Below, piece after piece: positions 27,975 through 32,750 of a DNA stretch of 64,000 bases. The notes beneath the pieces were generated by a model. The model was not told the DNA's origin. It saw only the letters and a list, made by a program, of their open reading frames with translations, and ran no database searches. Each line of letters starts with the position of its first letter. The stretch's first letter is position 1. This DNA comes from Thermoguttaceae bacterium (GTDB lineage: Bacteria > Planctomycetota > Planctomycetia > Pirellulales > Thermoguttaceae). The translations under genes were made by a program, and so were the position numbers. The DNA is taken from the NCBI GenBank assembly GCA_017447865.1, contig JAFSMO010000016.1, positions 124,001-188,000 of the forward strand, in the 5' to 3' direction.

Positions 27975-28799
27975 ATGATGAAAAAACACAAAAAAAACAA
28001 TTCAGGGATTGAATCCCTTTCAGAATCCAAACTCGAGGCCGCGCTGCGTTCTGCGTTCGCCAACATGAAGAAAATGGAAAATGATCAGGCCGAAACTCCG
28101 GTTTCCACCCGAAAAAAATCACTTCATGTGGACCAGGGCGTGTACCAGCCGCTGGAAACGACCCGGCCGACTGCGACGTTCGCGCCGCTGCATTACGAGC
28201 CGAATTACGCCTACCCGCTCATCATCTGGCTGCACACGCCCGGCGAAACCGAGCAGCAGATCATGCGCGTCATGCCGATGATGAGCCTGCGGAATTACGT
28301 CTCCGTCGCCGTTCGCGGAAACCTTTCGTTCGGTCCGAACGGTCTGCCGAAGAATGGGTTTTACTGGGACGCCACCACGTACGAAACCGCGTACGCATCC
28401 GTTCTGGAGGCCATGGCATCGATCCGCCAGCGATACAAAATCAACTCGAAACGGATCTATCTGGCGGGCTGCGAGGAGGGTGGAACCATGGCCCAGCGCC
28501 TGGCGTTCCGGAATCCGGAGTGCTTTAACGGCGTGATCTCCTTCGACGGCGCGGTTCCGGAAGACATTATGCTCCTGGAACGCTACAGGGAACTGCGTGA
28601 ACTGCGGTTTTTCTACGCCATTTCACGTGGTTCGAGGACCTGCCCGACCGAGGCGATGTGCAGCAATTTGCGCATCCTTCACTCTGCCGGATTATGCGTT
28701 TCCCTGAAGAGCTACCCGACTATGGGGTCGCTTCAGCTCGATATGCTGCGCGACGCCGACCGGTGGATCATGGGCGGAATCGAAACGGCATTGAAATAG
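27975..28799 (+). CDS. Esterase-fold protein lacking the catalytic triad (probable pseudoenzyme)
   Basis: The protein has 274 residues. It has the alpha/beta-hydrolase layout of phospholipase/carboxylesterase-type proteins: YAYPLIIWLHTPGETEQQIM, then RQRYKINSKRIYLAGCEEGG and a conserved helix. The nucleophile elbow is GCEEG where active relatives have G-x-S-x-G, so Glu replaces the catalytic Ser. The usual Asp and His regions (GSRTCPTEA; SYPTMGSLQ) also lack obvious catalytic residues. A hydrolase is therefore unlikely; a binding or structural role is inferred. A charged, signal-free N-terminus of about 60 residues precedes the domain. It sits 19 bases before the fliF-fliG gene, suggesting a job linked to that complex. 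Confidence 0.75.
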   Translation: MMKKHKKNNSGIESLSESKLEAALRSAFANMKKMENDQAETPVSTRKKSLHVDQGVYQPLETTRPTATFAPLHYEPNYAYPLIIWLHTPGETEQQIMRVMPMMSLRNYVSVAVRGNLSFGPNGLPKNGFYWDATTYETAYASVLEAMASIRQRYKINSKRIYLAGCEEGGTMAQRLAFRNPECFNGVISFDGAVPEDIMLLERYRELRELRFFYAISRGSRTCPTEAMCSNLRILHSAGLCVSLKSYPTMGSLQLDMLRDADRWIMGGIETALK

Positions 28800-28818
28800 A
28801 GTAAAGCGGGAGTTTTGA

Positions 28819-30756
28819 ATGAACCGTTCAGCGCGTTACATCCTCGTTTTATTGCTGGTCTTGGCCGCTTGCGCCGTCTCGCTGATTTTCTGCATTGATT
28901 TCGGGAAATCCTCGGGCGCTGAGGGGAAATACGCTCCGATTTTCTCGGGAAAACAGTTCACCGAAAGCGAGCTGATCCAGATCGAAATGGCCTTTGCCGA
29001 CGCGAAACTCTCCGACTACGTGATCTCCGAAGGATCGGTCCAGGTCCCGAAACGCCAAAAGACCGTATTCCTTCAGGCGCTGAAAAAAGTCGATTTCCTG
29101 ACGGCCGAAATTTCCGAAAAATCCGCTTCCTCCGGCGGTCTGTTCGTTTCTGAAAAAGAACGCGAAGCGGCGGCCCTGCGCGAAAAGCAGGCGGCTCTCG
29201 CGGCCCAGATCCGGACTTTCCACGGGATCGAGTCCGCGCGGATTCTGCTGGACGTTTCCGAGACCAAAACCGGTTTCACCCGTGAAAAGCACGCCTCTGC
29301 GGCCGTTTCCATCCGTTCCCGGGCCGGGTATGCCGTGACTCAGGACGACATTCAGTCGATCCTTCGTCTGGTGACCTGCTCCGTGTGCAACCTGAACGCC
29401 GCCAACGTGACGATCGTCGATACGCGGACGAACCAGTCGTGGCGCTTCGACGCTCCCCAAATCGAAGTCCTGCCGGACGCCCCGGCGGAAAACGCCCCCC
29501 AATCGACGGAATCGGCCAATCCGAATCAATCACGCAAAATCGTTTTGCAGGCGGAGCCGCTTCCCCAGCCTGAGCTTTGGAATTCCTCGTCCCGGGAAAT
29601 TCTTCAGGTTTCCACGGATGAGTCGCTTTTTGCCGCTCCATCCGCCTCCTCAGCTTCCCTGGGTCAAATCTCTCTGGCCAGTCATTCCGAGACCATGAAA
29701 ACCCCGGAAACGCTTCCGGAACTCACCTTTTCCGAAAATGGATCCATTCCGGATTTTCCAAACGGTCTAGGTGAAATAAAACTTCCAGGAGCGCGGACTC
29801 CCAATCATTCGAAGCAGGTCACGATTTTCCTGGGTTTTTTGGCCGCGCCGGTGATTCTGATTTGCATCTGGATCATTTACGTGACCCGAAAAGGGCTTTT
29901 CCGCTCGGAACGCAAGCGGCTCACCGCACAGGAGCAAAAACCGCAGGAATCCGAGGAAAAACCGGTCGAAAAAACCAGTCCCGTCTCTCAGGTCGACCTG
30001 ATGGCCACGCTGGTTTCTGAAATCGCAGACGAAGCCGAAAAAGATTTCGCCGCTGAAACGGTCCCTCAAACCGAACCTGAACCGGAGGCGGAACCAGAGC
30101 CGGAGCCTCCGCACATCATCCCGGCAGAACTTACCGCTTTGGAGCAGGCTGCGCCGGAACGTCTGGCGCTGGCGCTTCTGGAGGAACGTCCACAGACGGC
30201 CGCGATGCTTTTGGCGCAGATGAAGCCGGAAACCTCCGCGGCGGTTCTGGAGCACATTCCGACGAAACTCCGGGAGGGGATCGAGTCGCGAATGACCGGA
30301 AGTCAGGCCCCTGACGAAGAAATTTTGCGCAAAGCCACGCTGGTGATTCTGGAGCATTTGGACGAACTGGACGGAAAGCCCGCTGAGGAAGACGATTTCC
30401 TGGAAACGGTCGGGGCGATTCTGAAATCGAACGAAACGAAAAAGGCCAAAGCCCCTGAAAAACCGGTGATTCGTCCGCTCGCCGAGGCGATTCCGAAGGA
30501 GCGGGTCTTGCGTCGGTTTGAGGATTTGAAGTCGTGTTCCGACTCCGAACTGCGTGGGATCCTGAGCGAAACCCCGGTCCAGGACGTAAATCTGGCGCTT
30601 CTCGGGGCCGAGCCGGAACTGGTGGATCGGGTATTGAACGTCCTTCCAAAACCGGCCGCAAAGGAACTTCAGTTCCAGCTCACGCATCCGGGAAAAATCA
30701 AGCTGATGGAAGTCGAGGAGGCGCGCCAGAGGATGCTGGAACACGCGGGAGTTTAA
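28819..30756 (+). CDS. fliF: FliF-FliG fusion: MS-ring protein joined to switch-protein domains
   Basis: The protein has 645 residues. TM1 spans 7-26. Residues 35-215 are a FliF/YscJ ring domain: KYAPIFSGKQFTESEL, then LAAQIRTFHGIESARILLDV and VTQDDIQSILRLVTCSVCNL. Residues 215-332 are a Ser/Pro-rich linker where normal FliF has its third ring-building motif and collar. TM2 spans 333-355. After an acidic linker, residues 440-525 match the FliG middle domain (LALALLEERPQTAAMLLAQM; VLEHIPTKLREGIESRM), and 560-645 match the FliG C-terminal domain (RRFEDLKSCSDSELRGIL; EVEEARQRMLEHAG). The FliF C-tail and FliG N-domain that normally bind each other are absent, as expected if fusion replaces that contact. 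It sits in the cytoplasmic membrane, ring in the periplasm and FliG part in the cytosol. Confidence 0.85.
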   Translation: MNRSARYILVLLLVLAACAVSLIFCIDFGKSSGAEGKYAPIFSGKQFTESELIQIEMAFADAKLSDYVISEGSVQVPKRQKTVFLQALKKVDFLTAEISEKSASSGGLFVSEKEREAAALREKQAALAAQIRTFHGIESARILLDVSETKTGFTREKHASAAVSIRSRAGYAVTQDDIQSILRLVTCSVCNLNAANVTIVDTRTNQSWRFDAPQIEVLPDAPAENAPQSTESANPNQSRKIVLQAEPLPQPELWNSSSREILQVSTDESLFAAPSASSASLGQISLASHSETMKTPETLPELTFSENGSIPDFPNGLGEIKLPGARTPNHSKQVTIFLGFLAAPVILICIWIIYVTRKGLFRSERKRLTAQEQKPQESEEKPVEKTSPVSQVDLMATLVSEIADEAEKDFAAETVPQTEPEPEAEPEPEPPHIIPAELTALEQAAPERLALALLEERPQTAAMLLAQMKPETSAAVLEHIPTKLREGIESRMTGSQAPDEEILRKATLVILEHLDELDGKPAEEDDFLETVGAILKSNETKKAKAPEKPVIRPLAEAIPKERVLRRFEDLKSCSDSELRGILSETPVQDVNLALLGAEPELVDRVLNVLPKPAAKELQFQLTHPGKIKLMEVEEARQRMLEHAGV

Positions 30757-30786
30757 CGAAAAAATCATCCGGGCTGCATCATTAAT

Positions 30787-31440
30787 ATGAATTCTCACCT
30801 TTTTAATTTCGAAGACCTGGAGGCCCAGGCGGAAAAATATCTGGAAGCGGTCCGGGAAAAAGCCCGGGAAATCGTCGCGCAGGCCGCCCAAAACGCCCAG
30901 CAGATTCAGGAAGAAGCCCGGCAAAAGGGCTTTCAGGAAGGCTTGAAGCAGGGGAAAAATCAGGCGCTAGAGCTCGTTCAGGACGAAGTTCAGGAACGGG
31001 TCCAGACCGAGGTGGAAACCATTTCGGATCAGGTCATGACCCAAATGCACTCCATCGCCGGCCAGTGCGTCGAACTGCGCGAGGAACTGACCAAGAACTG
31101 GGAAAATGCTTTTTTGAGCCTCGCAACTCGGGTCGCTCGCGTGATTTTGAGGCGTGAGCTGGAAAAGGACCCGCAAATCGAAATCCAGTGGATCCGCGAA
31201 ATGCTCCAGCTCTGCGCCGGGGAAAATTCTTTGATCCTGACGCTGAATCCCCAAGACGCGGAACTTCTTCAGGGTCCGCTGGAACGTCTTGCCGGCGAGT
31301 TCGGGAAGATCGGCCAAATGACGATCAAAACTTCACCCGCCATGACACGCGGCGACTGCGTTCTGAAAACCGAAAACGGCCAGCTCGACCAGCGGCTTGA
31401 CGTTCAGCTCGCCAGAATCGCGGAGGAGCTCCGTTCATGA
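30787..31440 (+). CDS. fliH: FliH-like export-ATPase regulator
   Basis: The protein has 217 residues. The N-terminal half is a long charged coiled coil with the FliH hallmark KGFQEGLKQGKNQAL. The C-terminal half (FLSLATRVARVILRRELE; SPAMTRGDCVLKTENGQLDQ RLDVQL) matches the FliH/SctL domain that binds the N-terminus of the export ATPase. FliH holds FliI as an inactive heterotrimer and docks it at the export gate. Its stop overlaps the fliI start by four bases, so the two are made together. It follows the fusion gene by 30 bases. Confidence 0.88.
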   Translation: MNSHLFNFEDLEAQAEKYLEAVREKAREIVAQAAQNAQQIQEEARQKGFQEGLKQGKNQALELVQDEVQERVQTEVETISDQVMTQMHSIAGQCVELREELTKNWENAFLSLATRVARVILRRELEKDPQIEIQWIREMLQLCAGENSLILTLNPQDAELLQGPLERLAGEFGKIGQMTIKTSPAMTRGDCVLKTENGQLDQRLDVQLARIAEELRS

Positions 31441-32750
31441 ATCCTTTCTCCCTTCTGAATCAGCTTGATTCGGTCATTCCGACGGCCATCACCGGGACCG
31501 TGCTGGAAACGAGCGGCACGACGATCCGTGTCAGCGGTTTTCCCGCCCCGGTCGGCGCTCTGGCAGAGATCCGCCTCGGGGACCGCTCCACGCTCACGGC
31601 CGAAGTCATTGGTTTCCGGAACGAGCAGGCCATTCTGTACCCGCTTCATTCGACCCACGGGATCCGGCGCGGCGACCGAGTTCGGATGGTCCAGACCGCT
31701 CCGTGGCTCACGATCGGCGAGGGGATGCTCGGAAAAGTCCTCGACGCTCAGGGCCGGGTCCTTCAGGATTCGGTCGAGCCCGTTTCCACCGCCGCGGTTT
31801 TGAACACGGAACGGATCCCCTTCCATCGGGCGGCTCCGAAAGCGTTCCAGCGTCCCAGGATCACGAAGCCGATCTCGACCGGCGTGCGAGCGATCGACGC
31901 TTTGTTCACCCTCGGCGAGGGGCAGCGCGTCGGGATCTTCGCGGGCTCCGGCGTGGGGAAAAGCACCCTGCTCGGCATGATCGCCCGCTACACGAACGCC
32001 GACGTGATCGTGATCGGGCTCGTGGGCGAGCGCGGCCGCGAAGTGAACGATTTTCTGGAACGGGACCTGGGGCCCGAGGGCCGCCGGCGGAGCGTCGTGG
32101 TGGTCGCGACGGGGGACGAGTCGCCGATCCTGCGCGTGCGCGCCTCGCAGACGGCCACGGCCGTGGCGGAGTATTTCCGGGACCGCGGGAAAAACGTTTT
32201 GCTCCTGATGGACTCCCTGACCCGATTCGCCATGGCGCAGCGTGAAATCGGCCTGGCTCTTGGTGAACCGCCGGCGCGAAACGGTTACCCGCCGTCAGTT
32301 TTCGCCATGCTTCCGGCCTTGGTGGAGCGCACGGGCCGGACGCGTGAGGGAAGCATCACCGCAATGTACACGGTCCTGGTGGAAGGTGACGACGAAAACG
32401 AGCCGATCGCCGACACGGTGCGCGGCCTGCTGGACGGCCATTTGTGGCTTTCGCGCCGACTGGCCGAGAGCGGACACTACCCGGCGATCGACGTTCCGTC
32501 CAGCATCAGCCGATTAATGAACGACATTTGCGAGAAATCCCACGTTCAGACCGCGCTCCAGATCCGCTCCATGATCTCCCTCTGGCGTGAGTTCAAAGAC
32601 CTTCTGGCCATCAACGCCTACAAACGGGGAACCAACCCGGCGCTGGACGAAGCACTTGAAAAGAAACAGGCGATCATTAACTTCCTCCGCCAGAAAACCG
32701 ACGAGCCCTCCACGCTGGAAGACGCCGTCGCGGAGATGAAACGGATTTAG
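31437..32750 (+). CDS. fliI: FliI-type flagellar/type III export ATPase
   Basis: The protein has 437 residues, typical for FliI/SctN. The P-loop GSGVGKST is near residue 170, with GLVGERGREVNDFLERDLG, LLLMDSLTRFAMAQREIGLA and the ENEPIADTVRGLLDGH segment of F1-beta-like export ATPases. It forms a hexamer that unfolds and feeds substrates to a type III export gate. FlhA, FlhB, FliP/Q/R, rod, hook, flagellin and FliM/FliN genes are not in this window, so whether the system is flagellar cannot be settled here. The start overlaps the fliH stop (ATGA). Confidence 0.93.
   Translation: MNPFSLLNQLDSVIPTAITGTVLETSGTTIRVSGFPAPVGALAEIRLGDRSTLTAEVIGFRNEQAILYPLHSTHGIRRGDRVRMVQTAPWLTIGEGMLGKVLDAQGRVLQDSVEPVSTAAVLNTERIPFHRAAPKAFQRPRITKPISTGVRAIDALFTLGEGQRVGIFAGSGVGKSTLLGMIARYTNADVIVIGLVGERGREVNDFLERDLGPEGRRRSVVVVATGDESPILRVRASQTATAVAEYFRDRGKNVLLLMDSLTRFAMAQREIGLALGEPPARNGYPPSVFAMLPALVERTGRTREGSITAMYTVLVEGDDENEPIADTVRGLLDGHLWLSRRLAESGHYPAIDVPSSISRLMNDICEKSHVQTALQIRSMISLWREFKDLLAINAYKRGTNPALDEALEKKQAIINFLRQKTDEPSTLEDAVAEMKRI

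Follow-up and report, generated by a model that had tools for sequence, protein, structure and literature searches.

Our analysis concerns a four-gene cassette, coding for a degenerate esterase (here the pseudo-esterase), a fusion of FliF with FliG, FliH and FliI, that lies in a 64,000-nucleotide stretch (hereafter the window; assembly GCA_017447865.1, contig JAFSMO010000016.1, positions 124,001 to 188,000) of the draft genome of a Thermoguttaceae bacterium. The results suggest that the cassette would supply the inner-membrane ring and the ATPase of a machine that is probably a proton-driven exporter of other proteins and not a motility organelle. Since the engine is kept, the rod and both cargo docks are gone, selection is purifying and the genes occur in many genera, an exporter whose cargo has been swapped appears to be the most economical reading. 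More tentatively, we propose that a flagellum was converted, probably at least twice in parallel, into a new type III exporter apart from the injectisome lineage, with its proton engine and ATPase unchanged, its rod, switch domain and both cargo docks lost and a pseudo-esterase added in some genera, and that rod-bearing, partly reduced and fully reduced relatives coexist.

Rod genes and cargo docks across the family

Neither the rod domain (Flg_bb_rod) nor flagellin (Flagellin_N) gave a match in the draft genome, while the rod search was positive in four of 14 control genomes (E. coli, B. subtilis, C. vibrioides and T. maritima) and the flagellin search was likewise positive in controls. This agrees with the preliminary description, made from the letters of the window, which had proposed a flagellum-derived machine not used for motility; with rod and flagellin lacking, no full flagellar gene set was found elsewhere in the draft. 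A survey of the family (119 genomes, 40 genera) returned a rod-domain match in 64 genomes and none in 55, the latter being every family genome not among the rod matches listed (35 of the 55 without a row of their own). FlhA was present in 62 of the 64 rod-bearing and 53 of the 55 rodless genomes and FliF in 55 and 47, respectively, and all eight genomes of the window's genus were rodless and carried FlhA. Incompleteness alone does not explain this pattern, because among the 43 genomes with at least 90% completeness and at most 5% contamination the rod was found in 25 and FlhA in 42. One genome, G008, is rod-negative by search, yet its FlhB is full and its sister G009 is rod-bearing, so that it is probably a rod-bearing genome with missing pieces; it was placed as rodless in the presence counts of FlhB and FlhA and with the rod-bearing set in the counts of FlhA residues.

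The loss of the rod is accompanied by a shortening of FlhB. Passages of published work describe the cytoplasmic (NPTH) domain of this protein as the dock of early substrates (PMC8983047) and as the switch of export specificity (PMC7911332). When FlhB was assessed by the end of its match to the Pfam model Bac_export_2 (335 positions), with incomplete matches at contig edges retained, all 56 proteins from rod-bearing genomes reached the end of the model and none was short, whereas 43 of 47 from rodless genomes stopped at position 222-248 and four were full. FlhB of the window's genome is 245 amino acids long and its C-terminal end, ...DPNVKQRIRERMR, falls directly before the NPTH autocleaving domain. 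In rodless G034 the cytoplasmic domain is kept, with the NPT motif reading APD, together with the FlhA dimple residues, and this genome is a possible intermediate.

FlhA shows a different distribution of change along its length. Residues were counted in 22 of the 53 rodless genomes with FlhA, which include the g17-20 group (n=5) and the g1/g32/g27/g33/g34 clade (n=16), and in 22 of the 62 rod-bearing ones plus G008, a set of 23. Eleven positions (R85, R94, 137, R147, R154, D158, P161, D199, D208, D249 and Q254), which passages of a 2026 preprint (PMC13308203) assign to the proton path, the channel ring or its kink, were invariant in 22/22 rodless and 23/23 rod-bearing-set proteins; ten equal the E. 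coli residue, and position 137 is Q for N. The chaperone dimple, described as D456, F459 and T490 in a passage of PMC8166844, is altered. F459 was retained in 22/23 of the rod-bearing set, 1/16 of the g1/g32/g27/g33/g34 clade and 0/5 of g17-20, and T490 in 23/23, 1/16 and 1/5; D456 varies already in the rod-bearing set (17 D, 6 E). The three places read E, Q and R in the window's genome. The g17-20 proteins lost the dimple because 44-45 residues are deleted within E. coli positions 433-482, a change also visible as a split Pfam match in 6/6 genomes, so that the chaperone dock was deleted in one rodless lineage and substituted in another. Among the 288 positions near-invariant in the rod-bearing set, six (S442, F459, T480, V482, T490 and Y564) were lost in both rodless groups, meaning kept in at most 1/5 of g17-20 and at most 2/16 of the other clade, a comparison made after seeing the data; none of the 157 near-invariant positions within residues 1-327 was lost in both. 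The internal domain limits used (327, 361, 500 and 583) are those we take to apply to FlhA.

The cassette and the dispersed export genes

Pfam searches confirmed the four genes of the cassette (Table 1) and bore out most of what the preliminary description had said of its layout. The genes are packed with gaps of 19 and 30 bases followed by a 4-base overlap of fliH and fliI, all four open reading frames (ORFs) being on one strand, and are flanked by genes for HisG and PRA-CH (HisI) on one side and by a convergent gene with an HZS_alpha domain, probably unconnected with the machine, on the other. The single promoter also proposed did not hold up, as the two promoter-like sites found at the cassette are not above the 1.1 +/- 1.1 expected by chance. 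Flagellar queries against the window matched the pseudo-esterase, FliF, FliG, FliH and FliI only.

The fusion is a single ORF of 645 amino acids with Pfam matches to YscJ_FliF (1.6e-21), FliG_M (2e-9) and FliG_C (3e-13). A structural model of modest confidence shows RBM1-RBM2 only, and YscJ_FliF_C is unmatched by the hidden Markov model (HMM); the RBM and collar names are those we assume for FliF. The same HMM was matched by both rod-bearing FliF tested and by none of the 13 rodless FliF that match YscJ_FliF, a count outside which stands the FliF of G037 (L099), without a Pfam match at 0.01 despite an earlier genome-search match. The fusion recurs in three loci of the same genus (L094, L096 and L097) and in two of g32 (L106 and L107), and FliF and FliG are unfused in sister genera. 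Rodless G081 (g34) has a fusion of 683 amino acids in which FliF is joined to FliG_M only, so that FliF and FliG have become fused on more than one occasion. FliG is without its C-terminal torque part in those genomes of g27, g33 and g34 that were examined (four and G081). This is a better sign than the torque residues K264, R281, D288, D289 and R297, whose roles we take from E. coli and which are uninformative, since they are not E. coli-like even in two rod-bearing planctomycetes.

FliI scored 564 bits with the NCBIfam model FliI_clade2 and 536 with SctN, both under their own cut-offs, and its Walker K, catalytic Glu and Arg finger, roles which we presume for these residues, were retained in 18/18 aligned planctomycete FliI. 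The genome has one FliF match, in the window, and one strong FliI match, also in the window; the other four FliI matches are far weaker (best 1.7e-46) and are presumed to be other ATPases.

The pseudo-esterase gave weak esterase matches (best NCBIfam 4e-10, 39.5 bits against a cut-off of 150). The preliminary description had called it degenerate, and rightly so, given that its GxSxG elbow reads GCEEG and that the catalytic Ser is missing in 120/120 homologues listed of 286 found; a binding role is the likely reading of this sequence. The gene precedes fliF in the loci of the window's genus that reach that far and has the same place in six related loci (L094-L097, L024 and L026); it is two genes ahead of fliF in L103 (g18), and it precedes fliP in L184 and fliN in L185, both of g34. 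The g17, g19, g20, g27, g32 and g33 loci retrieved did not show it, and it is therefore not universal.

The window belongs to contig C110 of an assembly of 4.83 Mb in 110 contigs (92% complete, 2.5% contaminated), and the rest of the apparatus was found elsewhere in it. The absence of export-gate, FliM and FliN genes that had been reported thus stands for the window and fails for the genome, where FlhA, FlhB, FliO, FliP, FliQ, FliR, FliN and a FliM-like protein are coded on other contigs. FlhA lies on C105; C37 carries fliN-fliO-fliP, with FliO just under its cut-off; C12 carries fliQ-fliR facing flhB. Proteins with FliMN_C were found on C37, on C56, where the protein is FliM-like (E 0.03 only with the FliM model proper), and on C110, more than 100 kb from the cassette. 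We rejected the idea that FliQ is missing or fused to FliR, as a separate ORF for it sits in another frame of an over-long FliR call, whose start is probably near 11488 of L017. Genes for the MS ring, the C ring, the ATPase and the export gate of the bacterial flagellum are all present; MotA/MotB were not seen in the stretches read, no genome-wide stator search having been made. Flagellar models outscored Sct models for the five core proteins tested: besides FliI, FlhA reached 718 bits against 535 for SctV, FlhB 164 against 137, FliR 137 against 76 and FliP 232 against 156, with only FliP above its own cut-off among these equivalog models.

Table 1. Positions of the cassette genes and of other features (L numbers denote loci outside the window)
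Feature	Position	Strand	Remark
Pseudo-esterase	window:27975-28799	+	alpha/beta-hydrolase relative without catalytic Ser; upstream of the FliF-FliG fusion gene
FliF-FliG fusion	window:28819-30756	+	transmembrane segment 1, RBM1-RBM2 (SctJ-like), disordered stretch at the RBM3/collar place, transmembrane segment 2, FliG_M, FliG_C
FliH, ATPase regulator	window:30787-31440	+	PF02108 7.7e-20
FliI, export ATPase	window:31437-32750	+	FliI/SctN-type ATPase, Pfam 4e-88; catalytic residues intact
Convergent neighbour, HZS_alpha domain	window:32778-35594	-	PF18582 3e-22
Further HZS_alpha-type proteins or relatives	L002:13051-17733; L003:6853-10557; L019:990-4373; L021:13786-16725
FliQ ORF	L017:11222-11488		89 amino acids
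LptD-like outer-membrane protein	L017:13028-16516		adjoins flhB of the window's genome
Same BLAST cluster as the LptD-like gene	L131:2-2161; L132:3532-6498		near flhA in two g34 genomes
DacZ-type diadenylate cyclase	L015:16158-17093; L176:4449-5381; L177:11673-12608		directly before fliN; window's genome (L015) and same genus (L176, L177)
Trypsin-domain protein	L127:5402-7423; L128:5495-7480; L129:4083-6278		adjoins flhA in three g33 genomes
HATPase_c proteins and homologue	L104:12885-13367; L103:1272-1754; L135:19346-19999
FliF fused to FliG_M only	L113:8164-10212		G081
FlhB of G034	L189:7747-8805

Several neighbours of the export genes recur. The DacZ-type gene (called by Pfam in the window's genome and by BLAST cluster in the other two) has a position that makes a link to cyclic di-AMP possible, and the LptD-like gene may lie near export genes by chance. 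Proteins of HZS_alpha type, or their phmmer relatives, lie near several of the dispersed export loci of the window's genome. Large esterase-domain proteins beside its fliP and beside flhA of G048 are mutually related and are not clearly machine parts. The trypsin-domain call rests on Pfam for L127 and on BLAST cluster for L128 and L129. In rodless g17-20 the gene in front of fliF codes for an HATPase_c protein; rod-bearing G002 has a homologue of it, and the gene that comes next there resembles a response regulator (by eye) and is not adjacent to the HATPase_c gene in the rodless clusters.

Origin of the rodless state and rival readings

The rodless cluster corresponds to a flagellar cluster minus fliK-flgE-motA-fliL, because rodless G024 and G023 (fliF-G-H-I-J-N-O-P-Q-R-flhB) otherwise match the order of rod-bearing G088, which runs fliF-G-H-I-J, FliK (PF02120 1.5e-19), FlgE, MotA, FliL and then fliN-O-P-Q-R-flhB-flhA-flhF; flhA is on the same contig in G024, and flhA-flhF-flhG are on another contig in G023. 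In the FlhA tree, g17-20 is nested among rod-bearing genomes and g1, g32, g27, g33 and g34 form one clade (99.7 SH-aLRT in the tree without G008), with G034 outside it. Two or more origins of the rodless state fit these data best. From the tree, the gene order common with rod-bearing relatives and the unfused FliF and FliG of sister genera, the machine seems to have arisen inside this planctomycete family. The relatives named are metagenome-assembled genomes (MAGs) of Thermoguttaceae, Planctomycetaceae or Planctomycetia.

We infer the following mechanism for the exporter. FliF would form a ring of simpler, SctJ-like shape, FliG and the FliM/FliN proteins would serve as a cargo-sorting platform and not as a rotor, FliH and FliI would bring cargo to the gate, and FlhA, FlhB and FliPQR would push one fixed cargo class over the inner membrane. 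Without the rod, the product may end in the periplasm or feed an unrecognised axial part. The starting point of such a machine would have been an ordinary set of flagellar genes, from which fliK and the genes for hook, stator and rod were lost, probably on more than one occasion.

Several points weigh against this exporter. The main objection is the importance of the FlhB cytoplasmic domain for export in Salmonella: according to a passage of PMC3640470, deletion of a loop in that domain abolishes secretion, and for this reason an FlhB without it may not export by the known route. Long FlhB is kept in four rodless genomes, G008, G034, G042 (68% complete) and G091 (partial), the FlhA of G034 keeps the dimple residues D, F and T, and part of the collar region can still be aligned in the FliF of g17-20. 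The window's genome has its export genes dispersed over five or more contigs, and no FliJ turned up in the parts of it that were read (fliJ directly follows fliI in three relatives of the same genus, by Pfam for L094). The data do not reject one common origin for all rodless FlhA (approximately unbiased test, p 0.085; without G034, p 0.055), rodless FlhA have longer branches, and one rodless pair has a ratio of nonsynonymous to synonymous substitution rates (dN/dS) of 0.39. Neither a substrate nor an outer-membrane conduit nor an axial protein came to light, with no genome-wide search for secretins or stators, and most or all genomes surveyed are MAG-like drafts.

Some of these points would suit a non-functional flagellar relic in slow decay, which we regard as unlikely. 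The longer FlhA branches, the gene dispersal and the lost domains of FlhB and FliG favour it, and passages of a 2025 survey (PMC12199754) point out that remnants exist and that keeping a few rotor proteins costs little. However, FlhA persists in nearly all rodless genomes, the reading frames of the window's genome are intact, and the proton-path and FliI catalytic residues are unchanged throughout the proteins compared. The dN/dS of FlhA ranged from 0.061 to 0.385 across six rodless pairs and from 0.045 to 0.183 across four rod-bearing ones (G009/G008 among them; a fifth was saturated), which indicates purifying selection. The other genes gave 0.081 for FliI (one pair, the others near or at saturation), 0.224 for FliF-FliG (one g32 pair) and 0.251 and 0.159 for FliH (a third pair saturated), and both pseudo-esterase pairs were saturated in synonymous changes. 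This is not what decay looks like, although constraint is somewhat looser than in rod-bearing relatives. An injectisome-like type III device, in which the rod gave way to needle or inner-rod proteins that escape recognition and to a pore recruited in the outer membrane, with proteins passing out of the cell or into neighbours, is also unlikely, if marginally less so than a relic. In its favour, the ring as modelled resembles SctJ, two of the five named relative loci come from animal gut (goat colon and water deer rectum), and passages of PMC3459982 report that non-flagellar type III secretion systems (NF-T3SS) recruited secretins at least three times; but the five core proteins score as flagellar, and the compact g17-20 clusters hold no further recurring gene among the ORFs listed, needle-sized ORFs below 60-75 amino acids not being examined and secretins not searched for.

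Considerably less probable is a rotary or ring machine that uses the MS ring, C ring and proton flow for a task other than export, for example envelope organisation. FliG, FliN and FliM-like genes are retained, and passages of the preprint PMC13308203 hold that proton flow likely rotates FlhA. Nevertheless, motA is within the stretch missing from the rodless cluster, the torque part of FliG is absent in the g27, g33 and g34 genomes examined, and the full gate and ATPase are kept, as export requires. Least probable of all, and in our view very improbable, is common descent with the chlamydial FliF-FlhA-FliI set as a non-motility machine of the whole Planctomycetes-Verrucomicrobia-Chlamydiae superphylum, which the preliminary description had proposed. 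Passages of PMC4768692 and PMC2830194 report, for Chlamydiaceae, a FliF-FliG fusion and FliF, FliI and FlhA without flagella, respectively, and the FliF-FliG_M layout recurs in G081. Against this, rodless FlhA group with rod-bearing FlhA of the same family in a tree without chlamydial sequences, gene order follows that of rod-bearing relatives, unfused sister genera imply that the fusions arose within the family, and the chlamydial fusion is about 330 amino acids long with FliG_M only. Since fusions arise more than once within the family, the likeness to Chlamydiae looks convergent.

Comparison with known systems

The conversion of a flagellum into a secretion machine has long been debated, mostly on the evidence of a single ancient event, the one that gave rise to the injectisome. 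Within the present family, whose rod-bearing members survive, the same step seems to have occurred, so that the order of losses is readable from genomes; in addition, the FlhA proton engine is here separated by nature from the cargo docks of FlhB and FlhA. Should these machines still be exporting, their engine can work without either dock. Among the papers listed by searches of open-licence PMC literature, none described such a machine in planctomycetes as judged by title and beginning of the abstract; a passage of PMC11929135 states no more than that 70% of the digester planctomycete genomes of that study encode a core flagellar protein set, and according to its title and abstract Thermoguttaceae have been isolated.

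The closest relatives of the machine are the flagella of rod-bearing family members such as G088 and G002, whose FlhA stands in the same tree and, in G088, whose gene order is the same on either side of the missing stretch. These genomes keep fliK, flgE, motA, fliL, rod genes, a full FlhB (360 amino acids in G088) and the FlhA dimple, features which are absent or changed in the window's genome, where FliF is in addition fused to FliG. With the Salmonella export gate FlhA/FlhB/FliPQR it has in common the FlhA proton-path residues and the FlhB membrane domain, but not the FlhB cytoplasmic domain or the chaperone-dimple residues. The nearest precedent in print is the NF-T3SS of Myxococcales ("Myxo"; Abby and Rocha 2012, PMC3459982), which, in the passages concerned, likewise consists of an export core and ATPase without FlgBCDEK, is long conserved and is argued to be functional without flagellar or injectisome outer parts. 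That system is itself without MotAB, secretin and needle subunit, which were not searched for here; it roots the NF-T3SS tree and has no FliG, whereas the present machine has FliG_M and FliG_C, flagellar scores and an origin that looks separate. The chlamydial system, as passages of Bergeron 2016 (PMC4768692) and Stone 2010 (PMC2830194) describe it, also has a shortened FliF fused to FliG and no flagella known, in bacteria that possess an injectisome as well; unlike it, the machine described here has a fusion that extends through FliG_C and a full gate of its own.

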